In this document: positions 1 through 40,705 of the stretch, piece by piece
How the letters are laid out: each line of letters begins with the position of its first letter
Numbering within the stretch: the stretch's first letter is position 1
Assembly (NCBI GenBank): GCA_002239065.1
Contig: MPNO01000002.1
Span: forward strand, 62,001 to 126,000
Direction of reading: 5' to 3'
Source of the DNA: Defluviicoccus sp. bin129
GTDB taxonomy: Bacteria > Pseudomonadota > Alphaproteobacteria > MPNO01
DNA: 64,000 nucleotides
The notes under the pieces: model-generated
What the model was told of the DNA's origin: nothing
Databases searched by the model: none
What the model saw: only the letters and a program-made list of their open reading frames with translations
Program-made: the position numbers and the translations under genes

Positions 1-310
1 CTTCCTCGCAGGGGGCCGGGCAGATGCGGCCGGTAAACTCGGGGAAGTTGTTGGTCGAGTGCAGATTGTCCAGCGCTTCGCGCCAGTCGTCGCGGTAGAC
101 CAGGTCGTTCCAGTCCGGGATCTGGTTGTTGACCGGACAGCCGTTGTGACAGAACGGGATGCCGCAATCCATGCAGCGCGCCGCCTGCTTGCGGTTGGCC
201 TCGTCGCCGAGCGGCTCGACGAATTCCCGCCAGTGCCCGACGCGCTCCTCGACCGGGCGGTAGGGGCGTTCGCTGCGCCCGAACTCGAGGAAGCCGGTGA
301 CCTTACCCAT
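1..310 (-). CDS. gltD: Glutamate synthase small subunit, N-terminal part (runs off window)
   Basis: This is the first 103 residues of the NADPH-dependent glutamate synthase beta subunit. That subunit passes electrons from NADPH through FAD and two 4Fe-4S clusters to the large subunit, which makes two glutamates from glutamine and 2-oxoglutarate. The N-terminal ferredoxin-like Cys set is visible at C46, C49, C54 and C58, followed by C97 and C101, as expected for the family. The ATG at 308-310 lies inside the end of gltB, an 8-base overlap, so the pair is translationally coupled. The rest of the gene lies beyond base 1. Confidence 0.95.
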
Positions 311-3300
311 GCGCCTCGATCTTCCGGTCGGCAGCGGCCATTTCGGTCAGCGCGCGGCGGTATTCCACCGGCGTGACCTTGACGAACCGGTCCCGCGCGG
401 CCTCCCAGTCCGCGAGCATGGCGGCCGCCACGGCGCTTCCGGTGTAGCGGCGGTGACGCTCGACCATGCCGTGGAGCCGCGCCTCGTCATGCCGCATCAT
501 GTCCTGCAGGTCGCGGGCTTCCCGTCCGCTGGCGGGGACCGCCTCCAGCATCACCCCCGCCAGGTTGCACCGCTCCTCGAACGTCCCGTCGGGGTCGTAG
601 ACATAGGCGATGCCGCCGCTCATGCCCGCGGCGAAGTTCCGCCCGGTGGAGCCCAGCACCGCGACGCAGCCCCCGGTCATGTATTCGCAGCCATGGTCCC
701 CTACCCCCTCGACGACCGCCCAGGCGCCCGAATTGCGCACCGCGAAGCGCTCCCCCGCGACGCCGGAGAAATAGCATTCGCCCTCGATCGCCCCGTAGAG
801 AACCGTATTGCCGACGACGATATTTTCGCTCGGCACGTAGGGCGATGCGGCAGGCGGGTGGATGACCAGCCGGCCGCCGGAAAGCCCCTTCCCGACATAG
901 TCGTTGGCGACGCCCTCGAGATGGATCGCCATGCCGCGCGTGGCCCAGGCGCCGAAACTCTGCCCGCCGACCCCCTTCGCCTCGATGACGATGCTGTCCT
1001 CGTCCAGACCCGCATGGCCGCGCCGCCTGGCGACCTCGCCCGCCAGCATGGCGCCGACCGTGCGGTTCACGTTGCGCACCTCCGTGCGGATCCTGACCGG
1101 GCGGCCTTCCTCCAGCGCCGGCGCGGCGTCGGCGATCAGACGGTTGTCGAGCGCGCGGTCGAGACCGTGGTCCTGCCCCTCGCTGTTGTGGATGTCGACG
1201 CCGGGACCGACCTCCGGCTTGAACAGCAGCCGGTTCAGCTCCACGCCATGCGCCTTCCAGTGGTCTTCCGCGCGGCGCATGTCGAGCCGGTCCGAGCGGC
1301 CGATCATCTCCTCGAAGCGCCGGAAGCCCAGCCGCGCCATGATCCGGCGCACTTCCTCGGCGACCAGGAAGAAGTAGTTGATCACATGCTCGGGCGTGCC
1401 GGCGAAGCGCCGCCGGAGCTCCTCGTCCTGGGTGGCGATGCCGACCGGGCAGGTGTTCAGATGGCACTTGCGCATCATGATGCAGCCGATCGCGACCAGG
1501 GGCGCGGTGGAGAAGCCGAACTCGTCCGCCCCGAGCAGCGCGCCGATGGCGACATCGCGCCCGGTGCGCAGCCCGCCATCGACCTGCACGGCGATGCGGG
1601 TGCGCAGATCGTTGAGCACCAGGGTCTGGTGGGTCTCGGAGAGGCCGATCTCCCAGGGCGAGCCGGCATGGGTGAGCGAGGTGACCGGCGAGGCCCCGGT
1701 GCCGCCCTCGAATCCCGAGATCGTGACATGGTCGGCCTTGGCCTTGGAGACGCCGGCGGCGACCGTGCCGACGCCGACCTCCGAGACCAGCTTGACGCTG
1801 ATCCGCGCCGCCGGGTTCACGTTCTTCAGGTCGTGGATGAGCTGGGCCAGATCCTCGATGGAGTAGATATCGTGATGCGGGGGCGGCGAGATCAGGCCGA
1901 CGCCGGGGGTCGAGTGCCGCACCCGCGCGATGTTGCGGTCCACCTTGTGGCCGGGGAGCTGGCCGCCCTCGCCGGGCTTGGCGCCCTGCGCCATCTTGAT
2001 CTGGATATCGTCGGCGTTGACGAGGTACTCCGTGGTGACCCCGAAACGTCCGGAGGCGACCTGCTTGATCGCCGAGCGCATGTTGTCGCCGTTCGTCAGC
2101 GGCTCGAAGCGATCGGCTTCCTCGCCGCCCTCTCCGGTGTTCGACTTGCCGCCGATGCGGTTCATGGCGATCGCCAGCGTGGTGTGCGCCTCGCGCGAGA
2201 TCGAGCCGAAGGACATGGCGCCGGTGGCGAAGCGCCTCACGATCCGGGAGGCCGGCTCGACCTCCTCCAGCTTCACGCCGTTGCCGTCCTCGCGGAACTC
2301 GAACAGGCCGCGCAGCGTCATCAGCCTGCGGCTCTGGTCGTTCAGGATGGCGGCGTAGTCCTCGTAGCTCGCCGCGTCGTTGGCGCGCGCGGCATGCTGG
2401 AGCTTGGCGACCGTGTCCGGCTCCCACTGGTGGCGTTCGCCGCGCAGCCGGTAGGTGTATTCGCCGCCGACATCGAGCATGTCGCGGTAGATCGGCGCGT
2501 CGCCCCAGGCGGCGCGGTGGCGGGCCGCCGTTTCGGCCGCGATCTCGGCGAGCGAGGCGCCTTCCACCGTGGTGGCCGTGCCGGTGAAATAGCGCTCGAC
2601 GAGCTCGCTCGCCAGACCGACCGCATCGAAGATCTGCGCGCCGCAATAGGACTGGTAGGTCGAGATGCCCATCTTGGACATGACCTTCAGCAAGCCCTTG
2701 CAGACGGCCCTTATGTAGTCTCGATGGACCTTCTCGCGGGTGAAGTCCGCCGGGAAGGCGCCGTCTTCGTGGAGCGCGTCGAGCGTCTCGAACGCGAGAT
2801 AGGGGTTGACCGCCTCCGCCCCGTAGCCGGCAAGCACGCAGAAGTGATGCACCTCGCGGGCTTCGCCGGTCTCGAGCACGAGGCCCACCTCGGTGCGCGA
2901 GCCTTCGCGGATCAGGCGGTGATGCACCGCCGAGCAGGCCAGCAATGCCGGCAGGGCGATCCGGTCCGGCCCGATCGCGCGATCGGACAGGATGAGGATG
3001 TTGAAGCCCCGTTCGACCGCCCGGCTCGCTTCGTCGCACAGCCGTTCGACGGCGGGCCCCATGCCCGCCTTGCCCTCGGCGGCGTCCCAGGTGGCGTCCA
3101 GCGTCTCGGTCACGAACGCCCCGCCGACCAGATCGGCCACATGGCGGATCTTGTGGAGGTCGCTGTCGGTCAGGATCGGTTGCGACACTTCGAGGCGGCG
3201 ATGCGTGCCGCCGCTGTCCAGGTCGAGCAGGTTCGGGTGGGGTCCCACCATCGAGACCAGCGACATCACCAGCTCTTCCCGGATCGAGTCGATGGGCGGG

Positions 3301-4889
3301 TTGGTCACCTGGGCGAACAGCTGCTTGAAATAGGTGTAGAGCAGCTTCGGTCGTTCGGAGAGGACGGAGAGCGGCGTGTCGGTGCCCATCGACCCGACCG
3401 GGTCGTCGCCGTGCTCGCCCATCGGCCGCAGGAAGACCTCGAGATCCTCCTTGGTGTATCCGAAGGCCTGCTGGCGGTCGAGCAGATCGCCCGCCCCGGG
3501 CCGGTTGCTCGCCGCGAGCGGCGGCGCCTCCAGCTCGTCGAGCTGGAAGGCGGTGTCGGCGAGCCACTGGCCGTAGGGGTGCGAGCGCGCGAGTTCGGTC
3601 TTGAGCTCGCCGTCGTCGACGATGCGGCCCTGTTCCAGGTCGATCAGGAACATCTTGCCGGGCTGCAACCGCCATTGCTGGGCGATGCGCTCCGGCGGGA
3701 TGTCGAGCACGCCCACCTCCGAGGCCATCACCACGAGACCGTCGGTGGTCACCAGATAGCGCGCCGGGCGCAGGCCGTTGCGGTCCAGCGTGGCGCCGAT
3801 CTGCCGCCCGTCGGTGAAGGCCACCGCCGCCGGCCCGTCCCACGGCTCCATCAGCGCCGCATGGTACTCGTAGAAGGCGCGCCGTTCCGCGTCCATCAGC
3901 GGGTTGCCGGCCCACGCCTCGGGAATCAGCAGCATCATCGCATGGGCGAGCGAGTAGCCGCCCCGGACCAGCAGCTCCAGCGCATTGTCGAAGCAGGCGG
4001 TGTCCGACTGTCCGGGCGGGATCAGCGGCCACAGCTTCTCCAGATCCTCGCCGAACAGCTTCGAGCTGGTCGCATGCCGGCGCGCCGCCATCCAGTTGTA
4101 GTTGCCGCGCACCGTGTTGATCTCGCCGTTGTGGCAGATCATCCGGTAGGGATGCGCCAGCCGCCATGAGGGGAAGGTGTTGGTCGAAAACCTCTGGTGC
4201 ACGAGCGCCAGCGCGGACGCCATCCGTTCGTCCTGAAGGTCGAGGTAGTAGTCGCCCAGCTGCGGCGCGAGCAGCATGCCCTTGTAGACGATGGTGCGGC
4301 ATGAGAGAGAGGCGATGTAGAAGTCGTCGAGGCCGGGCGTGCCCTCTTCCGCGGCCCCGTTCTCGATCCGCTTGCGGATGACGAACAGCTTGCGCTCGAA
4401 GGCATCGCCCGGAGCGGTGTCGCTGCCGCGTCCGACGAAGATCTGGCGCACCACCGGCTCTGTGGTCGCCACCGTCGGCCCCAGGATCGCGCTCGCGACG
4501 GGGACGGTGCGCCAGCCGGCGACGCGCTGGCCTTCCTCGCCCACGATGCGCTCGACCAGCGCCTCGCAGGCGAGGCGCGCCGCTTCGGAGCGCGGCAGGA
4601 AGACGGCGCCGACCGCATAGTCGGCCTCGTCCGGCAGGTCGATGCCGGCCTCCGGCGCGACGGCGCGGAAGAGCGCGTCGGGCATTTGCAGCAGGATGCC
4701 GGAGCCGTCCCCGGCCAGCGGATCGGCGCCGACCGCGCCCCGGTGGTCCAGGTTCAGCAGGATTTCGAGGCCCTGCCGGACAATGCGATGGGACTTGCGG
4801 TTCCCAATATCGACTACGAAGCCGACGCCGCAGCTGTCGTGCTCGTTACGCGGATCGTAGAGTCCCTGCTTGGGCGGCAACGCAGACAA
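303..4889 (-). CDS. gltB: Glutamate synthase large subunit
   Basis: Ferredoxin/NADPH-type glutamate synthase alpha subunit, 1528 residues, the normal bacterial length. Domain order is a class II glutamine amidotransferase domain with catalytic Cys20 (EHDSCGVGF, after a short propeptide), a central domain, an FMN-binding synthase domain with the 3Fe-4S Cys motif around residue 1135 ([12 protein letters not shown]), and a C-terminal GXGXG beta-helix. The enzyme hydrolyses glutamine and channels ammonia to 2-oxoglutarate. The start is TTG at 4889. It places Cys20 where relatives have it, but I see no strong ribosome binding site, so the exact start is uncertain. A -10-like TATATG lies upstream on the minus strand (4969-4974) without a convincing -35. 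It is translationally coupled to gltD. Confidence 0.97.
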
Positions 4890-16754: not shown

Positions 16755-17735
16755 CTAGTCCCGGATCGCGTGTTCCCAGATGACCGAGTCCGCCTTCGGG
16801 TAGCTCTTGAGGATGCCGAGCTCCTTGGCGCCCTGCCAGACGGTCTCGAAGGCCTTGGCGTCGGCCTTGCTCACGGTCGCCGGGAAGAACGAGAAGCGGG
16901 TCAGCCACGCCTCGAAGAAATCGGGCGACATGTTGTGCTCCCTGCTGATCGCCTCCCCCACCTTGCGGCGATTGGCCAGCGCGTAGTCGACCGAGGCCTT
17001 GAGCATCCGGTTGAACTCCCTGAACGCGGCGGGGCGGGCCTCCAGCTTGTTGGGGTAGCTCACATTGACCGCCGGCACCACGTCCACCCCGTAGAGCTCG
17101 TTGATGTCGCGGCTGGTATAGGCGACCACGCGGTACTTGCCGGACTTGTCGGCCTTGTAGGCCTGGGAGTGGATCAGCCCGGCGGCGTCGACCCGGCCCG
17201 CCTCGAGCGCGCCGAGCAGCGCCGGCGCCGGCATCTGGACCCATTTGAAGTCGCCGCCCTTGTAGGAGACGTTGATGCCGTGCTTCTTCCACAGCGCGAT
17301 GCGCTGCCAGGTGGTTCCGGTCGATTGCAGGGCGACATTGCCCATCCGCTTGCCCTTGAGGTCGGCGACGGTCTTGTAGGGGCTGTCGGCCTTGACCCAG
17401 ATGGCGCCGCCCTCGCGCCCCGGCGGGGAGCGCAGCGCGGTCGACAGCACGACGAGCTGCAGGCCGCGCGCCTGCGCTCGCGGGATCGACATCACCGCGT
17501 TCATGATCACGTCGTAGCGCCTGGTCGGGGTCGACTGGATCAGCGCCGGGATGCCGAGCGAGGACATCTCGATCTCGATCGTGTCGGATTTGACGATCCC
17601 GCTCTTGATCCCGTAGAGCACGCCTTCCATCGCCGGCTCGATCAGATAGGCGTAGGTGATCTTTTCCTTCGCGCCGGCCCCCGTCGTCGCGCCGAGCGCG
17701 AAGGCGGCGAGGGTTCCGAGCAGCAACCGCTTCAT
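16755..17735 (-). CDS. ABC transporter substrate-binding protein, NitT/TauT family
   Basis: A 326-residue periplasmic binding protein of the nitrate/sulfonate/taurine type with a clear signal peptide (MKRLLLGTLAAFALGATTGAGA, cleaved before about residue 23). The fold features of the family are present (DLKGKRMGNVALQSTGTTWQ, ALEAGRVDAAGL). The ATG at 17735 follows GGAGG by seven bases. It overlaps the ATPase stop codon in ATGA, so the two are coupled. The ligand is unknown. The neighbouring SsuD-like monooxygenase suggests an organosulfur or similar compound. Confidence 0.9.
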   Translation of the reverse strand: MKRLLLGTLAAFALGATTGAGAKEKITYAYLIEPAMEGVLYGIKSGIVKSDTIEIEMSSLGIPALIQSTPTRRYDVIMNAVMSIPRAQARGLQLVVLSTALRSPPGREGGAIWVKADSPYKTVADLKGKRMGNVALQSTGTTWQRIALWKKHGINVSYKGGDFKWVQMPAPALLGALEAGRVDAAGLIHSQAYKADKSGKYRVVAYTSRDINELYGVDVVPAVNVSYPNKLEARPAAFREFNRMLKASVDYALANRRKVGEAISREHNMSPDFFEAWLTRFSFFPATVSKADAKAFETVWQGAKELGILKSYPKADSVIWEHAIRD

Positions 17736-18529
17736 GGTCTTGCCTCCATCTGGTGTTCGACCTGTTCCGTCGCATCGGGTGCGAGCGTGCGAAAGAGCGC
17801 GTGAAGATGCGCCTTGTGCGCCCTGAGACCGGCGGAGCCCTCGATCGTGCGCGGCCGGTCCTCGGCGATCTCGATGGTGTCGAGAATGCGGGTCGGCTTG
17901 TTGGAGAGCAGCAGCACCCGGTCCGCCAGCACCAGCGCCTCGTCGATATCGTGGGTGACGAACACGATGGTCTTCCCGGTCTTCTGCCAGATCGAGACGA
18001 TCTCTTCCCGCAGGCGCCGCCTGGTGTTGAGGTCGAGGGCCGAGAACGGTTCGTCCATCAGCACGATCTTCGGATCGACCGACAGCGCCCGCGCGATCGC
18101 CACGCGCTGGCGCTCGCCGCCCGACAGCATGGACGGGAATTTGTGCATGTCCGCGGCAAGCCCGACCAGGGCGAGCAGGTCGCGCGCCCGCTCCTCCATG
18201 GCGGCCTTCGGCATCCGGTCGAACCGGAGCTCCATGCCGAGCACGACATTGCCGAGCGCGTCCCGCCAGGGAACCAGGCGGGGCGACTGGAAGATATAGG
18301 CGATTTCCTGCCAGGCCTCGTCGGGCGGGCGCCCGTCCACCCGGACCGCGCCGCCGGATGCGCGGAGCAGATCGCCCATCACCCTGAGCGAGGTCGACTT
18401 GCCGCAGCCCGACGGGCCGAGAATGCAGAAGAACTCGCCCTCCCGGACATCGAAGCTGAGGTCGTCGTAGATCGTCTCGGCGGCGAAACCGACCTCGACC
18501 CCGCGAAAGGTGATCACGCTTTCCGTCAA
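17732..18529 (-). CDS. ABC transporter ATP-binding protein, SsuB/TauB type
   Basis: A 265-residue ATPase. Walker A is GPSGCGKST, the signature LSGGERQRVAIARAL, Walker B VLMDEPFSALD, and the switch His is in VFVTHDIDEA. The reading frame stays open up to a GTG at 18583, but the extra residues look non-coding. A TTG at 18529 gives the normal family length and start, and a GTG at 18520 is also possible. It is the first gene of the ATPase, binding protein, permease, permease, monooxygenase set. Confidence 0.92.
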   Translation of the reverse strand: MTESVITFRGVEVGFAAETIYDDLSFDVREGEFFCILGPSGCGKSTSLRVMGDLLRASGGAVRVDGRPPDEAWQEIAYIFQSPRLVPWRDALGNVVLGMELRFDRMPKAAMEERARDLLALVGLAADMHKFPSMLSGGERQRVAIARALSVDPKIVLMDEPFSALDLNTRRRLREEIVSIWQKTGKTIVFVTHDIDEALVLADRVLLLSNKPTRILDTIEIAEDRPRTIEGSAGLRAHKAHLHALFRTLAPDATEQVEHQMEARP

Positions 18530-18642
18530 TCGCCCGTACCCGATTGCATGGCGGCAAGTGTTCCACCCCGCCGCCCCGGGCACAAGCGGGGGCGCGTCCG
18601 GTGGTCATGCCCGGATCTGTTCCATTGCCGTCCGGTCTGGCC

Positions 18643-29590: not shown

Positions 29591-29929
29591 TCAGGCGCCG
29601 AGGGACGCGCGCGCCTCCTCCCTGTCCTCGTGTATCGGCAGAAGCTTGTCGAAGCCGCTGATCTTGAACACTTCGCGAATCTGTTCGGAAAGCGAGCACA
29701 GCACCAGCTTGGCGTCCTGGCTTTGCAGCGACTTCGCCGTGAGCAGGATCACCCGGAGCCCGGCGCTGCTGATATAGGCGAGCTCGCGGAAATCCATGAT
29801 CATGGCGCGGTCGGATTCCTCGAACGCATTGCGGACCGCTTCCTCGAAGGCGACGGCGGTGGATCCGTCGATTCGCCCCTTCACGTCCACGCACACGACG
29901 TTTTCGCTTCGTTCAGTCGTCAAATCCAT
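29591..29929 (-). CDS. STAS-domain anti-sigma-factor antagonist (RsbV/SpoIIAA-like)
   Basis: A 112-residue single STAS domain. The conserved phosphorylation loop reads YISSAGLRV, with Ser55 aligned to the serine phosphorylated in SpoIIAA/RsbV. In the partner-switching family the kinase/anti-sigma factor phosphorylates and inactivates such proteins, and a PP2C phosphatase reactivates them. Both partner types are encoded at 35353-38358. The gene follows amtB on the same strand by 101 bases and is ended by a strong terminator, so it may be co-transcribed with amtB and respond to nitrogen status. That link is inference. Confidence 0.9.
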   Translation of the reverse strand: MDLTTERSENVVCVDVKGRIDGSTAVAFEEAVRNAFEESDRAMIMDFRELAYISSAGLRVILLTAKSLQSQDAKLVLCSLSEQIREVFKISGFDKLLPIHEDREEARASLGA

Positions 29930-30030: not shown

Positions 30031-31422
30031 TCAGTCTTCCATGTCGGGGACGACGACGAATTCCGGGTAGGCCTCGATGCCCAGCTCCGCGACATCCTGC
30101 CCCAGCTCTTCGGTTATCGGCGTGACGCGGGCGCCGATGGTCGAGTTGATCGCCCACCATACCACCCACGAGGTGACGAACACGAACGCCCCGATGGCCA
30201 GGATGCCGGTGAGCTGCACCAGGAAATCGCCGCCCGCGGCGATGCACACCGCGAGCGTGCCCCAGATGCCGGCGAACAGATGCGCCGGAACCGCGCCGAC
30301 CACGTCGTCGATCTTGAGCCGGTCGAGGAGCTTGATCCCGAGGACGACGATGCAGCCGCCAACCCCGCCGATCACCACCGCCCAGTAGTGCTGGACGATG
30401 TCGGGCCCCGCGGTGATCGCCACCAGGCCGCCGATCGCCCCGTTCAGGCTGGCCAGCAGATCGACCCGCCCGAGAACCGGCCGCGACAGCGCCATCGCGG
30501 AGATGACCCCGGCGGCCGCGGCGAGATTGGTGTTGGCGAGGATGTTGCTGATCGCCACGGCGTCCGCGGCCCCGCCGAGCGCCAGCTGCGAGCCGCCGTT
30601 GAACCCGAACCAGCCGAGCCACAGGATGAACACGCCGAGCGTCACCGCGGGCACGTTGGACGGCGGGGTGACCTTCACGCTGCCGTCGGCGCGGAACTTG
30701 TTCTTCCGCGCGCCGACCACCAGCGCCCCGGCGAGCGCCGCCCAGCCGCCGGTCGAGTGGACGATCGTCGAACCGGCGAAGTCCTGGAAGCCCATCGCCG
30801 TGAGCCAGCCGCCGCCCCAGGTCCACGACCCGATGACCGGGTAGATGATCGCAGTCAGCACGGTGATGAAGAGCAGAAAGGACCACAGCTTGACCCGTTC
30901 GGCGAGCGTGCCGGAGACGATCGAGGCGGTGGTGGCAACGAACACCATCTGGAAGAACCAGTCGGACATCGTCGAGTAGCCGTTCTTGACCACCGCGGCG
31001 CCCGCCTTGGCCGCGTCGTCGCCGCCGCCGAGCAGCGCCACCTCGTCGCCGGTGGTGCCGTAGAACAGCGTCAGCGTGCCGAACCAGCCGCCTTCGGGGA
31101 CCCCGACATACATGATGTTGTAGCCGACGAGGTAGAACATCAGCCCGGCGATCGAATAGAGGCCGATATTCTTGAGACAGATGACCGAGGCGTTCTTGGT
31201 CCGCACCGAGCCCGATTCGAGCATGGTGAACCCGGCGCACATCCACATCACCAGCGCGCCCCAGATCAGGAACGAGAAACTGTTCAGGACGAACTGCGTC
31301 TCGTCGGCCACCGCCGCATGCGCGTTCGCCGAGAACAGCACAAGGGCGCCGGCAACCGCCAGGCCGAGCGCGGGGACCCGCCGCCACCCGGGCGGGACGC
31401 CGTCGTCGCGCGCAGAGCCCAT
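30031..31422 (-). CDS. amtB: Ammonium transporter
   Basis: A 463-residue Amt/MEP/Rh channel with an N-terminal signal-like segment (LGLAVAGALVLFSANAHA) and eleven membrane helices. Signature elements are present: the conserved Asp/His region DFAGSTIVHSTGG, GTLAERV, and the second pore His in DDVVGAVPAHLFAGIWG. The ATG at 31422 gives a proper signal sequence; longer frames upstream look non-coding. No glnK gene is adjacent, unlike most amtB loci. The downstream neighbour is the STAS antagonist gene, an uncommon pairing. Confidence 0.95.
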   Translation of the reverse strand: MGSARDDGVPPGWRRVPALGLAVAGALVLFSANAHAAVADETQFVLNSFSFLIWGALVMWMCAGFTMLESGSVRTKNASVICLKNIGLYSIAGLMFYLVGYNIMYVGVPEGGWFGTLTLFYGTTGDEVALLGGGDDAAKAGAAVVKNGYSTMSDWFFQMVFVATTASIVSGTLAERVKLWSFLLFITVLTAIIYPVIGSWTWGGGWLTAMGFQDFAGSTIVHSTGGWAALAGALVVGARKNKFRADGSVKVTPPSNVPAVTLGVFILWLGWFGFNGGSQLALGGAADAVAISNILANTNLAAAAGVISAMALSRPVLGRVDLLASLNGAIGGLVAITAGPDIVQHYWAVVIGGVGGCIVVLGIKLLDRLKIDDVVGAVPAHLFAGIWGTLAVCIAAGGDFLVQLTGILAIGAFVFVTSWVVWWAINSTIGARVTPITEELGQDVAELGIEAYPEFVVVPDMED

Positions 31423-31593
31423 GGGGGTCGATCCTCGATTCGCCGCGCGTTCGGTAGTCGTCAATCCGATCGATTTCGCGATATGCGACATGATATTGCA
31501 TGCCCTCCGGTTCGCATTGGCGCTCTCGGCGCAGCCATCCAGCCGTTTTCGGAAAGTCACGCGAACAGAAACCACGGTTCAGGGAATGACAGT

Positions 31594-31691: not shown

Positions 31692-32597
31692 TTACTTGGC
31701 CCAGATGGACACGTCGGCCAGGTAGTCGCGGGACGCGCGATCGAGCGGGTAGAACAACGCGCCGTCCCGGCCGAACCAGCGATTGTAGACTTCTTCGTAG
31801 CGTCCCTTGAATTGCTGCACGTCGCCGAACATGCGGACCAGGGTCCGGTTGACCAGGTCCCGCCAGCGGCTGTCGTTCTGCGGCAGGACGCAGGCGAGGC
31901 TTTCCGTCGCCAGGGCGCGGGTCCTCGGCAACAGCACGACGCTGCGCCGCGGTTCGCTGCGTTCGGCGAGGCCGAGCAGCACGACACCGACATTGGCGAC
32001 CCCGTCGACCTCGCCCTTCTCCAGACCGCCCATCGCGGCACCCATGTTGGGGAATTCGATGAGCTGCGCCCCGGGCAGGGTTTCCTCGAGGACGGCCACG
32101 GTCGTGGTGCCCTTGACGACGCCGATATTGAGCTGCCCGACATCGACGGTCTCTCCGGCACGCCCGCGATAGACCATCACCCGGGTGCCGTCGCGGAAGA
32201 ACGGCAGCGAAAAATCGACGATCCTCTCCCGGTCCCAGGTCGGGGTGGTGATGCCGCAGACGATATCGAGCTCGCCTCGGGCGACCCGATCCAGACGGTC
32301 GCTCGGCGTCACTTCGTACAGCTCGATCCGGACCGGCCGGCCCAGCTCCCGTTCGGCCGCGGCCCGGATCTCCTGCAGCAGATCGACGGAGAAACCCTGG
32401 AATTCTCCGGCCGCCGTTTTCTGGGCGAAGGGTGCCGCGCTGGCCCTGGTGCCGGCGCGAATCACCCCGTCCGCGGCGATGCGGGTCAGGACGCTCTCCG
32501 CCGCGGTCGCGGCAACGCTGACCATCGCAAGCGCCGCGCCGGTCAACACGGCTGCCGCCCTCGGGAGACGCAGCCCGCCCTCTCGTACCAGCTTCAC
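31692..32597 (-). CDS. Amino-acid-type periplasmic binding protein, orphan
   Basis: A 301-residue family 3 extracellular solute-binding protein (AapJ/BztA-like style). The GTG start at 32597 is supported by AAGGAG nine bases upstream and gives a signal peptide ending near SVAATAAES. The family features are FQGFSVDLLQEIRAAAE, GELDIVCGITTPTWDRERIVDFSLPFF and INIGVVKGTTT-type segments. No permease or ATPase lies in its own transcription unit. It is divergent from the operon encoding the receptor-like permease fusions, so it may deliver ligand to them. A transporter encoded elsewhere is the alternative. Confidence 0.88.
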   Translation of the reverse strand: MKLVREGGLRLPRAAAVLTGAALAMVSVAATAAESVLTRIAADGVIRAGTRASAAPFAQKTAAGEFQGFSVDLLQEIRAAAERELGRPVRIELYEVTPSDRLDRVARGELDIVCGITTPTWDRERIVDFSLPFFRDGTRVMVYRGRAGETVDVGQLNIGVVKGTTTVAVLEETLPGAQLIEFPNMGAAMGGLEKGEVDGVANVGVVLLGLAERSEPRRSVVLLPRTRALATESLACVLPQNDSRWRDLVNRTLVRMFGDVQQFKGRYEEVYNRWFGRDGALFYPLDRASRDYLADVSIWAK

Positions 32598-32714
32598 CTC
32601 GTCTTGCTCCTTCCGATCGGCCGAGCGGAGATTCGGCCCTTCGCGGCGCGCCGCCGCGGTTGCCCTGCGGTAAAACGCCGCGCGGCTTCCTCGTTTGTCC
32701 GCCCGTCTCGACTT

Positions 32715-32744
32715 ACTATTTGAACCGAGGGACAAAATTGTCAA
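32715..32744 (-). promoter_or_regulatory. Probable promoter of the orphan binding-protein gene
   Basis: On the minus strand a perfect -35 TTGACA (32739-32744) is followed after 18 bases by AATAGT (32715-32720), four of six matches to the -10 consensus with the key A and T kept. The start of transcription would lie about 110 bases upstream of the GTG at 32597. Confidence 0.45.
32731..32742. promoter_or_regulatory. Operator-like inverted repeat overlapping a -35 box
   Basis: GACAA-AA-TTGTC is a perfect 5-bp inverted repeat around two bases. It overlaps the minus-strand TTGACA and also offers TTGTCA as a possible -35 on the plus strand, so a bound regulator could control both divergent units. 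The palindrome is short and could be chance. Confidence 0.35.
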
Positions 32745-32966
32745 CAATGGGGGAGTTCGACAATCTCAATCTCAGGCGGAATTTACCAGCGATTGGGAAA
32801 ATTTGAGCGTCGCCCGCCACGGCGGGGCGACGCACCCCGAATTTCATATCTCGACGAGATCCACGGTGGTCTCGACGAGTCCAGCGGAGACGCCACCATC
32901 GCACCCAGCGGAGTCAGAGATTGCGTAGCCGGCGCCGTGCCCGAATCCGAGGCAGCGACGCCGGAC

Positions 32967-33725
32967 ATGTCGAACAGCTACGATGCGTATCTGTCCTCGG
33001 GGCTCTACGACCGCCGGTACCCCAGCCCGAACCGGCGCACGTTGCGGACCCTGCTCCGCCTGATGCCGACGGACGGTCGCTTTGTCGATTTCGGCGCCGG
33101 GACGGGGCGCTACACCCTGCCGCTCTTGCAACGCACCCGGGCGACGGGGGTGGCCTACGATGTCTGCCCGACCGCCTGCCGCATGCTGGCGGAGCGCCTG
33201 GCGGCATTCGTCGGCGATGGGCGCCTTGCCGTACGCAATGCCGGCGCCTCGGGGCTGGCCCGCTCGTTCCCGCAGGGGTTCGATCTTGCGCTTCTCGCCT
33301 TCGGTGTCCTGGCCCATGTGGCGGGGCGGAAGGAGCGGGCGTCCCTGCTCGCCTCGCTCCGGGCAATCCTGAAACCGGACGGCGTTCTGGTCCTCAGCCT
33401 GCCCAACGCCAAACGACGATTTCACGCGGAACAGCGCAGCGCGGCGCCGATGGTGCGGGATGGCGCGCTGGAGCCCGGCGATGTCTTGTACGCGCGCCAT
33501 TCGGAGGCTGGTACTATCGAGATGTTCTATCATCTGTTCTCGCCCACCGAGGCACGCGATGAATTGTCGAGCGCCGGTTTCAGGATCGAGAGCATCGAGC
33601 CGGAGAGCCTGCTTCCGGAGACGGCCGTGGTCGGCAACCCCCTGCTGGCCCGGCTGGACGACCTGGCTTGCGGGTTCGCGCCGGCGGCGGTCGGCTACGG
33701 TTTTCTGATCGTGGCCCGACCGTGA
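32967..33725 (+). CDS. SAM-dependent methyltransferase, class I
   Basis: About 252 residues with motif I VDFGAGTGRYTLPLL, a motif II region with ATGVAYDVCP, and FDLALLAFGVLAHV followed by LKPDGVLVLSLPN. It methylates an unknown small molecule or protein. The ATG at 32967 is chosen because similarity to the fold begins right after it; a GTG at 32937 or a TTG at 32793 are alternatives. The stop overlaps the GTG start of the binding protein-permease gene (GTGA), so it is translationally coupled to a sensory operon. That is unusual for a generic methyltransferase. Confidence 0.82.
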   Translation: MSNSYDAYLSSGLYDRRYPSPNRRTLRTLLRLMPTDGRFVDFGAGTGRYTLPLLQRTRATGVAYDVCPTACRMLAERLAAFVGDGRLAVRNAGASGLARSFPQGFDLALLAFGVLAHVAGRKERASLLASLRAILKPDGVLVLSLPNAKRRFHAEQRSAAPMVRDGALEPGDVLYARHSEAGTIEMFYHLFSPTEARDELSSAGFRIESIEPESLLPETAVVGNPLLARLDDLACGFAPAAVGYGFLIVARP

Positions 33726-35350
33726 ATTTTCCCGGTTTTCCGATCACGGGCGGCAGGCCCCGGCGAATTCCCGCTTTGGTCCACATGGCCGTCGCGATCG
33801 CCGTGGGGCTCTTCGGCGCATGGCCGGCGGCGGCGGACCGGCTCGACGAGATCCGGGCCAGGGGTTACCTGATCGCCGGCGTGAAGGCGGACTACCACCC
33901 GTTCGGGGTGCGCAACGAATCCGGCAAGCTGGTGGGCTACGATGTCGATGTCGCGCGCGGCCTGGCGGACGCGATCGGCGTAGCGGTGCGGCTCACCCCG
34001 GTGACCAGCGCCAACCGTCTGCAGAAGCTCGCGCGCGGCGAAATCGACGTCGTCATCGCCACGCTGGGCGACAACCGCAGCCGCCGCCGGCTGGTGCACA
34101 TGATCGAGCCCCAGTATTACGGCGATGGCGCCAACGTGCTGATGCGCGAAGACTCGGGCATCTCCACCTGGGAAGGTCTCCGCGGCCGCACGCTGTGCAG
34201 CGTCCAGGGCTCGATCTGGAACCGCCTGGCCGCGCAACGCCTGCTCGTCGAGACGATTTCCCTCAACTCCACCCGCGAAGCCGCGCTCGCCTTGCGCAAC
34301 GGACACTGCGTGGGCTGGCTGTACGACGAGGTCAACCTGCTGAGCGCCCTGGCGACCGGAGAGTGGAACGGGTTCACCGTGTCGCTGCCGACGCGCTTCG
34401 TCGCGCCCTGGGCGATCGCCATCAGGAAGGAGGAGGCGGGCTTAGGCCTCGACCGTCTTTTCGGCGACACCGTCGCGGTGTGGCATCGCGAAGGGTTCTT
34501 CCAGGAGCTGGAAAAGCGGTGGAACCTGCCCCCATCGCCCTATCTGCGGCGGGCGCACGAGACCTGGCGGGAAACCGACGAGTCGGGCGAACTCGTCTGC
34601 CGCCGCGACGAGGACGGCAGCTGGCCGCTGGCCTGCCGGGAGCGCGCGCTCATCACCAGCGAGGAGGTGGGCGGGCTCACGGCGATATCCATGGCGTTCA
34701 AGGAATCGACCGGTCTCGATGTCAGCCCGGTCTACGATCCGCTCAACCGCAGCGTATTCCTCCATGGTCTGTTCCTCACGGTCGCGCTTTCGGTCGCGAC
34801 CGTTGTCGGCAGTATCGTGCTGGGCGCCCTGTTCGGCTGGGTCTTGCATCGCCGGATCCCTGTCCTCGCGCCTTTCCTGCAGGCGCTGTGCGCGGTGCTC
34901 CGGATGACGCCTCCGCTGCTCCAGCTCTACGTCTTCTTCTTCGGGATCGGCGGCATTCTGTTTGCCTATGGCTTCACGCTCGATGCGTTCTCGCTCGCCG
35001 CCGCGGTGCTGTCGCTCTATGCCGCGGCCAGCAACGCGGTGTCGTTCTCCCTGGCCGCGGACGTCGCGGCCGGCGCCGGCGGCAGGCTGGGGTTCTCCCT
35101 GCGCGAATTCCGCCGAGCCCTCGAGCTGTGCCATGCCGCCGTGGCGGGCAATTCCGTCAACATCGTCAAGGCGACCGGAATGGCGAGCACCCTCGCATTG
35201 CCGGAGCTGGTGCACGCCAGCACGGCGATCATTGCCGAAAAGGGCAATGACGCGGTGATGATGAACCTGCTGCTGCTGTGCTACTTCCTGCTGGTCTTCG
35301 CCACCGTGTGGGCGCTCCGCGGCTGGGAGCGTAGGGCGCACGGGACCTAG
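33722..35350 (+). CDS. Fused amino-acid binding protein and ABC permease
   Basis: A 542-residue fusion. A signal peptide or anchor (about 1-38) is followed by a family 3 solute-binding domain (about 40-285, RARGYLIAGVKADYHPFGVRN, GEIDVVIATLGDNRSRRRLV), a linker with two Cys (C293 and C305), and a HisM/GlnP-type permease (about 345-540). The permease keeps the late signature (KATGMASTLALPELVHA), but the cytoplasmic EAA coupling loop is degenerate: the aligned stretch reads AGGRLGFSLREFRRALELC with no EAA. The start is GTG at 33722, overlapping the methyltransferase stop. No ATPase gene accompanies it. It likely forms a heteromer with the next product and may serve as a ligand sensor rather than a pump. 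Confidence 0.88.
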   Translation: MNFPGFPITGGRPRRIPALVHMAVAIAVGLFGAWPAAADRLDEIRARGYLIAGVKADYHPFGVRNESGKLVGYDVDVARGLADAIGVAVRLTPVTSANRLQKLARGEIDVVIATLGDNRSRRRLVHMIEPQYYGDGANVLMREDSGISTWEGLRGRTLCSVQGSIWNRLAAQRLLVETISLNSTREAALALRNGHCVGWLYDEVNLLSALATGEWNGFTVSLPTRFVAPWAIAIRKEEAGLGLDRLFGDTVAVWHREGFFQELEKRWNLPPSPYLRRAHETWRETDESGELVCRRDEDGSWPLACRERALITSEEVGGLTAISMAFKESTGLDVSPVYDPLNRSVFLHGLFLTVALSVATVVGSIVLGALFGWVLHRRIPVLAPFLQALCAVLRMTPPLLQLYVFFFGIGGILFAYGFTLDAFSLAAAVLSLYAAASNAVSFSLAADVAAGAGGRLGFSLREFRRALELCHAAVAGNSVNIVKATGMASTLALPELVHASTAIIAEKGNDAVMMNLLLLCYFLLVFATVWALRGWERRAHGT

Positions 35351-35352
35351 AG

Positions 35353-37920
35353 ATGCCCAACGTCGTCGACGTCCTGATCACCTGGACGCCCTATCTGGCG
35401 GTCGGATTCGGCTGGAACATTCTGGTTTCGCTGGTCGCGATGGCGATCGGCACGGCGTTCGGGATAGCGCTCGCGGCGATGCGGGGAGGCCGCGTTCGCC
35501 GCGTGAGCCAGGGCGCCGGTGCGCTGACGATGCTGGCGGCCAGCGCGCCGACCTTCGTCATGCTGTTCTACCTCGCCTACATGGTCCCGGGGAGTTTCGC
35601 GATCCTCGGCATGACGGTCATCGTGCCGGTGTGGCTCAAGGCGTCGCTGGCGCTGTCGATCGCGGTCGCGGGATTCGTCTCGGACAACGCGTTTGCCGCG
35701 CTGCGGCATCTGAGACGCGGCCAGACCACCGAGGCGCTGCTGTTCCTGCCGTCATGGACGAATTACTTCCTGATCATCGTGATGGCTTCGGCCACGGCCT
35801 CCGTCATCGGCGTACCCGAGATGGTCTTCCGGGTCGACACGGTGATCGCGGCGCTCGGCCAGCCGCAACTCTCGTTCTGGATCTACCTCTACGCGATGGG
35901 CTGGTTCCTCGCCTTCGCCGGCGTGGTCGCCCTGGTGATGCGGTTTGCCCATGTCCGACGCCGCGATGCGAGCAACAGCCTGTCCCGGCATCTGATCATG
36001 ATCGTCACCGCATCGGTGGGCCTCGCCATAATCAGCGTGGCGGTGGCGTTGGGACTGCTGGCGCGCAACACGCTGATCGACCAGGCGGAAAACCAGGCCC
36101 GGATGGTCGCCGGGCTGATCGCGAGCGAAGCCAACCGGGTCGGTCTGATCTCAGACGAGATCGACCGCGTGATCCTCTCGGAGAACGAGGCGCAGGCCAT
36201 AGCGATGGCCCATCTCGCCGACGTTCTCGGGGATGACGACCGGGCGCTCGCCGTCGAGATCGCGGAAATCACGGCCAACAGCGTCGTCGACGATGTCTGG
36301 GTGCTCGACGACAAGGGCATGCCGTCGGCACGCGCTATCGAGGGGCTTGGCCATGCCGGCGCCGACATGGCGCTTGGCGATATCGACGGCCCGGTCCTCC
36401 AGACCCTGCTCTCGGGACGGCGCTACTCCGTCTCGTTCCGATCCGTGCCGAAGGACGGTTTGGAACTGCCGCTGCGCTATGTCGGGGTGCGCTCGCGCCA
36501 GGGCAGGTCCGTTCTGGTCGGCAGCCTTGCGAACAAGACAACAGGGCTGCGCACGACCATCGGCCTCGCCGCGGCGCTCGACTCGCTGGCCGCCCAGCCC
36601 GGCATACGGGCGATATGGGTGGTGGACGATTCGCTCAAGGTCACCGCCGCGGTCGCGGCGGGCGCCTTGCGGGACGCGGCACAGCCCGCCTTCGGATCGT
36701 CCGACAAGTCGCTCGCGAGCCGGGCCGTCCGAGGGGCCGCGCAATCGTTTCTCAGCGACCGCGCACTGCATGTCGCGGCGCCGATTCTCGATCGCGGCGG
36801 CGTCGCCACCGGGGTTGCCGTCATCCACATGCCGCGCGACCATCTGGACGGGCTGCTGGGCGATTACATCGATTTCGGGCTTGCCATCTCCCTGGCCGCG
36901 TTCCTGATCGGGGCGGTGACAGCGACCCTGTCGGCCCGCCGTATCACACGACCGGTCACGGCGCTGACACAGGCCGCGGGGGAAATGGACCAGGGGAGTT
37001 TCCAGCCCGATTCGCTCGATCGCTACCGCGAGCGGCGCGACGAGCTGGGGCGGCTGATCCACACCTTCCAGACCATGGCGCGCGAGGTCCAGGCCCGGCG
37101 GGAGCATTTGGAGGCCCTGGTCGCCGAGCGCACGCTCGACCTCGCGAACAAGAATGCGCTGCTCGACGAGGCGAACCGGCGCATGGAAGAAGAGCTCGCG
37201 GTCGCGCATTCCCTGCAACACGCGATCCTGCCCAAGACCCTGCCGCCCGATACCGCCTATTCGGGCGACGCGATGATGACGCCGGCGCGCGAGATGGCGG
37301 GCGATTTCTACGACTATTTCGCCTTGCCGGACGGCCGGCTGGGACTGGTGATCGCCGATGTCTCCGGCAAGGGCGTGGCCGCGGCGTTCTTCATGGCGAT
37401 TACGCGGACGGTCATGCGCGCCACGGCCCAGGAGATCCGTCAGGCCGGCGCCTGCATGCGCGTGGTCAACGACAGGATCTCCTCCGAGAACCCGCACGAC
37501 CTGTTCGTGACCCTCTTCTACGGCATCCTGGACCCGGCGACGGGAACGCTCACCTACGCCAATGCCGGTCACAACGCGCCCTTCCTGATCCGAAACGACG
37601 ACGCTATCGAGACGGTGCCGATGACCGGCGGCGTGGCCGTCGGCGTCCTGCCGGATCTGGACTACGAGGAGAAGGCGGTGACGCTCGGCGTGGGCGATAC
37701 GCTGTTCCTCTATACCGACGGAATTTCGGAGGCGATGAACACCCTGGGCGAAACCTTCGACGAGCGCCGCATCGAGGACGCGCTTTCGATCGGTCCGGGA
37801 GCGCCGGTGGACACGGTGATCGGAAACGTCACCCTGGCCGTCGGCGAGTTCGTCGGCGACGCCGAGCAGTCGGACGACATCACCTGCCTCGTGCTGCGGT
37901 ACAACGGCAAGGAACCGTGA
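35353..37920 (+). CDS. ABC permease-sensor-HAMP-PP2C phosphatase fusion (RsbU/SpoIIE-like)
   Basis: An 855-residue multi-domain protein. Residues about 10-200 are an amino-acid ABC permease ending with SVIGVPEMV. Residues 213-236 are a further membrane helix and about 238-503 a periplasmic sensor-like region. A helix at 505-526, a HAMP domain (about 527-580) and a coiled coil (about 575-620) follow. Residues about 640-853 are a PP2C phosphatase with metal-binding Asp651 (AGDFYDY), Asp669 (ADVSGKG), Asp789 (YTDGISEA) and Asp841/842 (SDDITCL). In the permease the EAA loop is missing: the GQTTEA segment runs directly into the helix before SVIGVPE. The phosphatase should dephosphorylate a STAS antagonist. 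It starts two bases after the previous gene. Coding quality is uniform across the junctions, so the fusion looks genuine. Confidence 0.9.
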   Translation: MPNVVDVLITWTPYLAVGFGWNILVSLVAMAIGTAFGIALAAMRGGRVRRVSQGAGALTMLAASAPTFVMLFYLAYMVPGSFAILGMTVIVPVWLKASLALSIAVAGFVSDNAFAALRHLRRGQTTEALLFLPSWTNYFLIIVMASATASVIGVPEMVFRVDTVIAALGQPQLSFWIYLYAMGWFLAFAGVVALVMRFAHVRRRDASNSLSRHLIMIVTASVGLAIISVAVALGLLARNTLIDQAENQARMVAGLIASEANRVGLISDEIDRVILSENEAQAIAMAHLADVLGDDDRALAVEIAEITANSVVDDVWVLDDKGMPSARAIEGLGHAGADMALGDIDGPVLQTLLSGRRYSVSFRSVPKDGLELPLRYVGVRSRQGRSVLVGSLANKTTGLRTTIGLAAALDSLAAQPGIRAIWVVDDSLKVTAAVAAGALRDAAQPAFGSSDKSLASRAVRGAAQSFLSDRALHVAAPILDRGGVATGVAVIHMPRDHLDGLLGDYIDFGLAISLAAFLIGAVTATLSARRITRPVTALTQAAGEMDQGSFQPDSLDRYRERRDELGRLIHTFQTMAREVQARREHLEALVAERTLDLANKNALLDEANRRMEEELAVAHSLQHAILPKTLPPDTAYSGDAMMTPAREMAGDFYDYFALPDGRLGLVIADVSGKGVAAAFFMAITRTVMRATAQEIRQAGACMRVVNDRISSENPHDLFVTLFYGILDPATGTLTYANAGHNAPFLIRNDDAIETVPMTGGVAVGVLPDLDYEEKAVTLGVGDTLFLYTDGISEAMNTLGETFDERRIEDALSIGPGAPVDTVIGNVTLAVGEFVGDAEQSDDITCLVLRYNGKEP

Positions 37921-37953: not shown

Positions 37954-38358
37954 TCAGGTGCGTTTGGTCAAGGTCACGATATTGCGCCCGTCGCTGCGGC
38001 GATAGGCGAACCCGTCCATCAATACGCGGACGAAGTGAACGCCGAGCCCACCGATGGGGCGGTGTTCGATCGGTGCGTCGGTATCGGGATGAGGCGCCCG
38101 GGTCGGGTCGTACGGCCTGGCGTCGTCCTCGAGCTCGATCACGAGCACGCCGTCCTCCACGCGGACGGTCATTTCGATCCGGTGCTGTTCGCCGTCGTCG
38201 TAGCCGTAGCTGATCGTGTTGGTCAGGAGCTCGTCGACCGACACGTTGATGGCGAAGGCGATATCGGGCGACACGCCGTGCTCGGCGCAAAACGCGTCGA
38301 CTCTCTCGGCGGCGGCAGCAAGTTCTCGCAAGTCATTGATCAGTGAGAACTGGAGCAC
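37954..38358 (-). CDS. RsbW-like anti-sigma factor / serine kinase
   Basis: About 134 residues of a GHKL-type ATPase domain. The N-box is in INVSVDELLTNTISYGY (E43, N47), the Asp of the next box is in LEDDARPYDP, and the G-box is GGLGVHFVRVLMD. This matches single-domain RsbW/SpoIIAB kinases that bind a sigma factor or another target and phosphorylate a STAS antagonist. The frame is open to 38562, but the extra part is AT-richer and looks non-coding. I take the GTG at 38358, whose ribosome binding site is poor. It is convergent with the permease-phosphatase gene across 33 bases. Confidence 0.85.
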   Translation of the reverse strand: MLQFSLINDLRELAAAAERVDAFCAEHGVSPDIAFAINVSVDELLTNTISYGYDDGEQHRIEMTVRVEDGVLVIELEDDARPYDPTRAPHPDTDAPIEHRPIGGLGVHFVRVLMDGFAYRRSDGRNIVTLTKRT

Positions 38359-38608
38359 GGCGGGTTCGAAATGCCTTTCTTGAAAAATCGCGCGGCACTG
38401 CGGTCGCTTCTTCCATGTCTGCGCAACGACTTCGGCACCGGAAACTGCAATGGAGCTTTCACCCCAATAGTTTTGCGTTTTCGTCGAACAGGTCAAATGA
38501 AATGAACCACGATCCGCGCCGCCGCGGGTCGAACGGTTTTTCTTGGTGATCCTTGCGCGCATGCATTAGCTTTCGGTACCCGGAAATGGCTCTCGCGGAA
38601 GGACGGTC

Positions 38609-40705
38609 ATGGCAATCACGCACTCCACGCACGAGGCTCCGACACAGGAGGTGGCGCTGCCGCCGGCCCTGGCGAGGATCAACAGCAATGTGCTGGACGA
38701 CTCGATCCTGAAGAAGCTGGTCGATCCGGACGTCTACTTCGCGCTCGCCCAGTGCCGCGCGACGGGCGTGCCGATGGATCGGGACTTCGCCGACGCGCTG
38801 GCCAAGTCGATCCGGGAATGGGCGCAGTCGAAGGGCTGCATCGGCTATTCGCACTGGTTCTCGCCGATGCGGGGTGCGATCCACGGCGAAAAGCTGGAAA
38901 CCTTCGTCGGGGTGGATTTCGCCACCGATCGCCTGATCATCAACTTGACGGGCTCGGAGCTGTTCCAGACCGAGACCGACGGCTCCTCCTTCCCCAATGG
39001 CGGGCTGCGCGACACCCATCGGGCGGCGGCCTATATCGGCTGGGACACCGGATCGCCGCCCTTCGTCTACCGCCAGACGCTCTATATCCCGTCCGCCTTC
39101 GTGACCTGGAACGGCGAGGCCCTCGACCAGAAGACCCCCCTGCTGCGCGCCGACATGGCGGTCAACGAACAAAGCGTGCGGCTGCTCTCGCTGCTCGGGG
39201 ACAGCGCGACCAGGGAGGTGGTGTGCAATGTGGGCTGGGAACAGGAATTCTTCCTGATCGACCGGGAGAAGTATCTGGCGCGGCCCGACCTGGTGGCGGC
39301 GGGGCGCACGCTGCTGGGTGCGGCGCCGCTGCGCGGCCAGGAGATGGACGGCAACTATTTCTCCAAGCTGTCGCCCCGGGTGAACCGCTACGTGGCGGAG
39401 GCGCGCGACAAGATGTGGGAGCTCGGGATCTCGATCCATTGCACCCACAACGAGGTCGCCCCCGCGCAGCACGAGATCTCGCCGGTCTTCGGCCTCGCGA
39501 ACCTCGCGGCGGATACCAACGTGCTCGCCATGGACGTGCTTCGCGACCTCGCCTTCGACCACGGCTTCACGATCCTGTTCCACGAGAAGCCCTTCGCCGG
39601 GATCAACGGCACCGGCAAGCACAACAACTGGGGGCTCAACACCGACACCGGCGCCAACCTGTTCGTACCGGGGGAGACCGAGGAGGAGAACCGGCGTTTC
39701 ATCGCCTTCGTCGCGGCGCTGCTGCGCGGCGTCAACCTGCACGGCGACCTGCTGCGCTGCGGCGTGTCGACCGCGGGCAACGATCACCGGCTGGGCGCGC
39801 AGGAGGCGCCGCCCGCGATCCTCACCCTCCATCTGGGCGAGCGCCTGGAAGCCCATGTCAAGGCGGTCGCCGAGGGCGGCGACTTCGCGGGTTACGGAAC
39901 CTCGCGCAAGGAGATCGAGATCGTGGCCCCGGTCGCCGATGTGCGGGCCAATCTGGAGGACCGCAACCGCACCGCGCCGTTCCCGTGGTGCAGCAACCGC
40001 TTCGAGTTCCGCGCCGTGGGCGGCAACCAGCATATCGCGTTCCCGCTGACCATGGTGAACGCGGCGCTGGCGGACAGCCTGAAGCACATGTGCGACGAGG
40101 TCGACGCCGGCAAATCCGTCGATCAGGTGATTCGCGAGACCATCCAGGAGCACCAGGGCGCCCTGTTCAGCGGAGACGGCTACTCCGACGCTCTCTACGA
40201 GCACGCCGAGAAGCACGGCCTGATCCACCTCAGGAGCAGCCCGGAAGCCTACGAAACCCTGACGGCCGACAAGAACGTCAAGCTGATGGGCGAGCTCGGC
40301 ATCCTCAACGAGCACGAGCTAGCGGCGCGCCAGAGCGTCCTGCAGGAGGCCTACGCCACCGAGCTCCACATCGAGGCGCGGGCGCTGCTGCGGATCCTCA
40401 GGACCCAGATCCTGCCGGTCGCCATCGAGGATACCCGCGCCGACCGCGACTCCGGGTTCCAGTCGCCGATGTTCGACGAAAAGCGGAAGCTCGTCGAAGA
40501 TCTCCTTTCGGAAATCGAAAAGCTCGCCGACACCTTCGAGTCCTTCCCGCACGACGATCCCGGACAGGCCGCGTCCTATGCGCACGAGACCCTGAAACCG
40601 CGCATGCAATCCGCGCGCGACGTGGCGGACCGGCTGGAACTCCTGGTGGATGGCCGCGCATGGCCGTTTCCGACCTATTCGGAGGTCCTGCACCATCATC
40701 AGTAG
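38609..40705 (+). CDS. glnN: Glutamine synthetase type III
   Basis: A 698-residue GSIII enzyme, clearly longer than type I (about 470). Typical elements are GWEQEFFLIDREKY, CTHNEVAPAQHEISP, GINGTGKHNNWGLNTDTGAN and FRAVGGNQHIAFP. It joins ammonia and glutamate with ATP. Type III enzymes are not regulated by adenylylation and are often nitrogen-starvation induced. The ATG at 38609 follows GGAAGGA. Its neighbours are amtB and the sensory cluster, so the locus groups ammonium uptake, assimilation and a signalling system. Confidence 0.95.
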   Translation: MAITHSTHEAPTQEVALPPALARINSNVLDDSILKKLVDPDVYFALAQCRATGVPMDRDFADALAKSIREWAQSKGCIGYSHWFSPMRGAIHGEKLETFVGVDFATDRLIINLTGSELFQTETDGSSFPNGGLRDTHRAAAYIGWDTGSPPFVYRQTLYIPSAFVTWNGEALDQKTPLLRADMAVNEQSVRLLSLLGDSATREVVCNVGWEQEFFLIDREKYLARPDLVAAGRTLLGAAPLRGQEMDGNYFSKLSPRVNRYVAEARDKMWELGISIHCTHNEVAPAQHEISPVFGLANLAADTNVLAMDVLRDLAFDHGFTILFHEKPFAGINGTGKHNNWGLNTDTGANLFVPGETEEENRRFIAFVAALLRGVNLHGDLLRCGVSTAGNDHRLGAQEAPPAILTLHLGERLEAHVKAVAEGGDFAGYGTSRKEIEIVAPVADVRANLEDRNRTAPFPWCSNRFEFRAVGGNQHIAFPLTMVNAALADSLKHMCDEVDAGKSVDQVIRETIQEHQGALFSGDGYSDALYEHAEKHGLIHLRSSPEAYETLTADKNVKLMGELGILNEHELAARQSVLQEAYATELHIEARALLRILRTQILPVAIEDTRADRDSGFQSPMFDEKRKLVEDLLSEIEKLADTFESFPHDDPGQAASYAHETLKPRMQSARDVADRLELLVDGRAWPFPTYSEVLHHHQ

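Follow-up and report, generated by a model that had tools for sequence, protein, structure and literature searches.

The window analysed here is a stretch of 64,000 nucleotides from Defluviicoccus sp. bin129, and its forward strand carries one gene of 855 codons (ATG at 35353, stop at 37920) in which a type I ABC permease-like domain, a periplasmic region, a HAMP domain and a PP2C phosphatase follow one another. The permease-like domain, named TM2, comprises amino acids 1-203 (35353-35961, + strand) and is connected to the phosphatase half through a junction of amino acids 204-214 (35962-35994, +), the place where split homologues have a stop and a start codon. The hydropathy profile consists of permease-like helices followed by two further predicted transmembrane helices, at 214-232 and, just before HAMP, at 508-526; between these two the periplasmic region extends over amino acids 238-505 (36064-36867, +). 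HAMP (amino acids 527-580; 36931-37092, +; PF00672, 8e-9) and the PP2C/SpoIIE phosphatase (amino acids 659-850; 37327-37902, +; PF07228, 4e-48) match their Pfam families above cut-off, and the phosphatase has relatives of known structure (e.g. PDB 3ke6, 3es2, 6k4e and 3t91). Asp 651, 654, 669, 789, 841 and 842 are invariant in the nine aligned phosphatases, the one from the window included and two rows being near-identical; a subset of these aspartates presumably binds metal. The frame is open from end to end with no internal stop, and the first-pass annotation was therefore right in describing a single uninterrupted frame with HAMP and a PP2C domain with conserved aspartates.

The same annotation named the N-terminal part an amino-acid ABC permease and proposed looking for BPD_transp_1, HAMP and SpoIIE in one protein. 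HAMP and SpoIIE were recovered as given above, whereas Pfam BPD_transp_1 has no match in the N-terminal 203 amino acids. The NCBIfam models PRK15100 and HEQRo_perm_3TM match this domain below threshold, and a profile built from eight related TM2 domains aligns at positions 10-203 with the amino-acid permease 4yms, at an E value of 4e-7. Judged by these matches, the domain is a genuine but divergent permease homologue. Homology to amino-acid permeases thus stands; a working permease is not supported, both halves being devoid of the ATPase-docking loop and the stretches inspected round these loci of an amino-acid-type ATPase. The periplasmic region (about amino acids 238-505) belongs to no Pfam family, its sole profile match in the PDB is at chance level (E 0.67), and the periplasmic region of P0001 compared with the upstream part of the cyclase at locus L127 gave an hhalign probability of 0.4%. 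It is nevertheless not a chance sequence, since it is conserved over its full length in other genomes with dN/dS well below 1, and it may adopt a sensor fold.

Two base pairs before the fused gene ends a gene (33722-35350, +) with a GTG start overlapping the stop of the preceding gene, which encodes an SBP_bac_3 solute-binding domain (PF00497; PDB relatives e.g. 6svf) together with the partner permease half, TM1, in one fused protein; like TM2, this half matches NCBIfam permease models below cut-off. In the solute-binding domain, Arg 121 and Asp 202 are retained and aligned with those of amino-acid-binding proteins, where we take them to contact the ligand. Further upstream lie a SAM-dependent methyltransferase assigned by domain match (32793-33725, +, start uncertain) and, on the opposite strand, a separate SBP_bac_3 solute-binding protein (31692-32747, -, start uncertain), GrrP-like and below the TIGR04262 cut-off. 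An ammonium transporter (30031-31575, -) is placed directly upstream of, and on the same strand as, a STAS antagonist-like protein (29591-29929, -) whose Ser55 is shared by each of the 15 STAS proteins that were aligned. Downstream of the fused gene are an RsbW-like HATPase_c_2 kinase (37954-38562, -; conserved part about 37954-38358), which keeps the GGLG box and the N-box Asn (the latter in 14/14 aligned sequences), and a type III glutamine synthetase assigned by domain match (38609-40705, +). The locus hence encodes all the features of an RsbU/V/W system that were looked for: a PP2C with conserved Asp, a STAS protein with Ser and a HATPase_c_2 protein with the N-box Asn. Among the 33 surveyed loci, several of them cut by contig ends, RsbW was counted at 15, STAS at 18, the ammonium transporter at seven and type III glutamine synthetase at four; the methyltransferase gene occurs at 21, PP2C and cyclase types alike, those of the cyclase loci having been found with their own reference. 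The proximity of the ammonium transporter and glutamine synthetase III suggests a nitrogen or amino-acid signal.

The EAA loops of importer permeases bind the ATPase. In TM2 of the window the site of this loop (amino acids 126-135, TEALLFLPSW; 35728-35757, +) is 20 residues shorter than in ATPase-bearing relatives, and the same 20 residues are missing at all 28 ATPase-less loci with a readable TM2 (22 loci, G313 and five cyclase loci). TM1 is likewise shorter at its EAA loop, by 9 to 17 residues, at 28 of 28 loci with a readable TM1. The loop is retained in four cassettes that carry an ATPase and in four canonical importers. No amino-acid-type ABC ATPase adjoins any of 29 loci, inspected over stretches of about 8.6 to 64 kb, the best ABC match there being 96 bits. 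The ABC ATPase found in the window (17732-18583) is of a distant type, with 92 bits against 208-217 bits for those of the four cassettes. Of the features of a type I importer, the window locus therefore presents a family 3 solute-binding protein and two homologous permease halves, and two tested features, the EAA loops and a co-encoded ABC ATPase, are absent.

The four ATPase-bearing cassettes (G260, G341, G812 and G160) belong to one genus, in which they were found in all four genomes searched. They encode STAS, PP2C, methyltransferase, solute-binding proteins, TM1, TM2, ABC ATPase and RsbW, in one co-directional run in G341 and G812 and in two blocks in G260 and G160. Walker A, Walker B and H-loop motifs are present in their ATPases. 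The signature motif reads LSAGQ in all four (L081, L082, L126 and L133) and LSGGQ in the canonical ATPase compared.

The association of loop and ATPase was followed in a class sample of 385 genomes, 39 of them with a TM2 match, in which all 41 TM2 genes were scored. Ten genes are loop-less (G000, G173, G285, G194, G313, G304, G381, G092, G132 and G330); none has an ATPase match above 96 bits nearby, and each adjoins a PP2C or dCache-cyclase gene. The other 31 bear the loop, and an ATPase match of at least 112 bits lies near 29 of them, the ATPases of G160 and G260 being counted from the second block; in G209 and in the second gene of G393 (contig 62) the loop is kept with no ATPase in view. 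The loop-bearing genes were seen mostly as stretches of 3.4-3.7 kb, so that the absence of partner-switch genes there means little. On trees of TM1 plus TM2 a single branch with support 100 parts all loop-bearing from all loop-less genes; the loop may therefore have been lost just once, and the counts are not to be taken as independent.

For further samples, which overlap one another, the TM2 profile was used at stricter limits that miss the cyclase group. The phylum sample gave a match in 8 of 398 genomes: G000, G565 and G684 are loop-less and five are loop-bearing, G451, G645, G477 and G721 among them. The remaining samples gave 1/16, 3/7, 8/22, 3/300, 1/369, 3/17 (one loop-bearing) and 4/4 (all ATPase-bearing). 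The TM2 family is patchily distributed.

The fusion occurs at five loci: that of the window, those of three other Defluviicoccus MAGs (82, 83 and 87% identical to the fused protein over its full length) and that of one other alphaproteobacterial MAG (L014, 70%), on a record of 3.5 Mb that bears the label chromosome. The frame is open at each of the five loci. The occurrence in other genomes that the first-pass annotation had named as support was borne out, as was the presence of STAS and RsbW-like genes near the fused gene of the window. Within the order, full-length matches were obtained in 4 of 27 genomes, all in one genus, where they represent four of five genomes; in the fifth, G003, the search for the full-length gene returned phosphatase-level matches only. 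None of 352 plasmid records matching the fused protein covers more than 80% of the query. In four comparisons with the window, dN/dS was 0.15-0.32 for TM2, 0.13-0.29 for the periplasmic region, 0.09-0.38 for HAMP and coiled coil, 0.12-0.31 for PP2C and 0.21-0.55 across a junction of 31 codons. These ratios indicate that the fused gene is under purifying selection in every domain.

TM2 and the phosphatase are separate neighbouring genes at 13 loci: the second copy of G002, G285, G173, G807, the seven genomes G792-G798, G313, whose locus spans two contig ends, and L015, which was counted as split and, lying at a contig end, left out of the loop counts. Five fused loci against 13 split ones contradict the idea that the two halves are always separate genes elsewhere. 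In G795 a contig end cuts the phosphatase down to its sensor part, and the stretches L012 and L013 stop soon after the cassette. The TM2 stop and the phosphatase start overlap as ATGA in L015, L084 and L077; L015 is unfused at this overlap where L014 reads through. In the TM1 plus TM2 trees the five fused genes form one clade (support 99 and 100 in the two trees), contained in a larger clade (100 in both) with the second copy of G002, G285 and the G792-G798/G313 group, in which all members except the fused five are split. The immediate sister of the fused clade is weakly supported (68 and 63). The first tree omits L015; the second, of 37 rows, omits also G792, G795, G796 and G313, and G276 is absent from it, a single gene having matched the two halves equally well. 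The genome G002 holds a fused (L012) and a split (L084) cassette, each with its own ammonium transporter and STAS genes. The locus L016, labelled Anaerolineae, is nearly identical to L017, labelled Alphaproteobacteria, and probably comes from a mislabelled or mixed MAG.

The loop-less permease pair is found with other signalling enzymes as well. An RsbW-like HATPase_c_2 kinase is the fusion partner of TM2 in G194, G778 and G779 (L078 9406-10560, L116 9272-10924 and L117 9192-10346; Pfam check done for G194), where the PP2C follows as a separate gene, and these fusions form a clade of their own with support 100 in both trees. A dCache adenylate/guanylate cyclase adjoins six loop-less pairs. In five alphaproteobacterial genomes (G304, G381, G092, G132 and G330) the gene order is dCache cyclase, methyltransferase, SBP-TM1 and TM2 (L088 4285-9396; also L135, L136, L137 and L140; Pfam check done for G304), with no ABC ATPase in view at these five loci. 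The genome G1080, which belongs to a different class, has a related dCache cyclase directly after a loop-less SBP-TM1/TM2 pair (L127 2625-4898, -). A very long branch leads to the cyclase group, which is weakly placed (support 86). No PP2C, RsbW, STAS or cyclase match was obtained within 19.5 kb in G565 and G684. The separate fusions to both switch enzymes, together with the repeated linkage to signalling enzymes, speak for a role of the permease pair in signalling.

Taking into account that: (i) both permease halves are devoid of the docking loop, and (ii) no amino-acid-type ATPase is encoded in the stretches seen, the input of the system is likely to be the binding of a solute rather than its transport. 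The first-pass annotation had coupled either binding or passage of a solute to signalling, and on the same two grounds passage is not supported, and a functional transporter served by an ATPase encoded in cis was rejected. We propose, as the probable reading, that the fused protein is one chain of an ATPase-free receptor that descends from an amino-acid importer of type I and feeds, in this case, a HAMP-PP2C output. In the model, the SBP-TM1 gene would supply the amino-acid-binding (Venus-flytrap) domain and the other permease half, and TM1 and TM2 probably still pair; no transport cycle is expected of the pair because both the ATPase and the loops to dock it are missing. Binding of the ligand, putatively an amino acid, would shift TM2, and the short cytoplasmic junction would relay this shift to the phosphatase chain, which consists of transmembrane helix, periplasmic region, transmembrane helix, HAMP, coiled coil and PP2C. 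The phosphatase, raised or lowered in activity, would dephosphorylate the STAS protein, with Ser55 as the candidate residue, and this would change whether the RsbW-like kinase holds the STAS protein or a putative target. More broadly, and with somewhat less confidence, we find it fairly probable that a whole type I ABC importer has become a receptor class in which the solute-binding protein and both halves are kept, the ATPase and docking loops are lost and the outputs are PP2C, RsbW or a class III cyclase, and that living genomes still show its stages, from ATPase-bearing through split to fused.

The alternative that survives best, though we consider it unlikely, is that TM2 is a mere membrane anchor or assembly handle, that sensing is left to the periplasmic region in the phosphatase half and that the fusion just joins co-transcribed genes. 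That region could indeed be the only sensor: the two parts are separate genes at 13 loci, Azospirillum PP2C proteins align over amino acids 209-849 with no importer gene annotated nearby in the two of the 352 plasmid records viewed, and the cyclases beside loop-less pairs carry a dCache domain of their own. An anchor, however, would hardly account for the retention of SBP, TM1 and TM2 despite the loss of the ATPase, for purifying selection on TM2 in the fused genes or for the fusion of TM2 separately to PP2C and to RsbW. Distinctly less likely is that the TM1-TM2 pair moves solute without ATP, as a facilitator or true transceptor, while signalling. We know of no type I importer that works without its ATPase, and the sequence data give no sign of a transport path, although the transmembrane core is strongly conserved and CbrA both transports and signals according to the relevant part of PMC7096432. 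Even more doubtful is a functional importer served by an ATPase from another place in the genome: neither the solute-binding protein nor either permease half is missing, and two loop-bearing genes are likewise without a nearby ATPase, but the EAA loops that would dock it are gone from both halves and the ABC ATPase found in the window is of the distant type. An artefact of assembly or annotation, conceivable for a window that comes from a MAG, can be rejected with near certainty because the identical open frame recurs at five loci of separate records, one of them the 3.5-Mb record, and dN/dS stays at 0.21-0.55 through the junction.

The ATPase-free receptor reading has parallels among known systems. 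In the open-access literature, screened by titles and the beginnings of abstracts, neither a permease-HAMP-PP2C fusion nor a type I importer that has no ATPase and works as a receptor is described. Polar amino-acid importers (4yms) share with the window system the permease homology and the SBP_bac_3 partner, and differ from it in that the latter has no EAA loop, no nearby ATPase and a fused phosphatase. The HAMP-PP2C half resembles the SiaA/RsbU type and aligns with the NCBIfam SiaA model NF038263 over amino acids 513-850, at 102.4 bits against a cut-off of 700, so it was rejected as a SiaA equivalog; to our knowledge, SiaA has no permease domain. A further precedent is that of the 5TMR receptors and ECF S-components, in which, in the passages concerned of PMC11109136, a membrane fold of importers is likewise shared with receptors, some of them fused to SpoIIE-type phosphatases, and the S-component fold is called the first prokaryotic case of a transceptor. 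That fold is of type III (ECF) transporters and was found by structure prediction according to the same passages, whereas the window system consists of a type I permease pair with a solute-binding protein and has ATPase-bearing and unfused relatives. Ks-Amt5, as presented in part of PMC5764959, also uses a transporter domain as sensor fused to a signalling enzyme and binds its ligand without translocating it, but joins an Amt domain to a histidine kinase instead of an ABC permease to a phosphatase. CbrA, in the relevant part of PMC7096432, again joins a transporter domain to a sensor enzyme and is linked to carbon/nitrogen balance; unlike the window protein, its SLC5 symporter domain still transports histidine and its output is a histidine kinase. 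The SpoIIE-like phosphatases of Sorangium similarly combine a periplasmic binding domain with SpoIIE in one protein, the binding domain being Pfam00532, and the relevant section of PMC2887360 mentions no permease. Comparative genomics of Defluviicoccus (PMC9041414) lists amino-acid transporter genes, and the passages concerned make no mention of the fusion.

If our reading is correct, it would suggest that a partner-switching system can take its input from nutrients, and ABC importers of another class would provide a further case of transceptor in which the intermediate stages are preserved. The series from transporter to receptor would then be testable along its steps, from ATPase with partner switch, through the loss of ATPase and loops, to the fusion with phosphatase or kinase. 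Moreover, permease pairs without the loop could be used as a marker to search sequences for further receptors of this kind. Elsewhere in the window, about 30 kb from the cassette, genes resembling glutamate synthase subunits, of nitrogen assimilation, were recognized by eye at 2-4889 (-).
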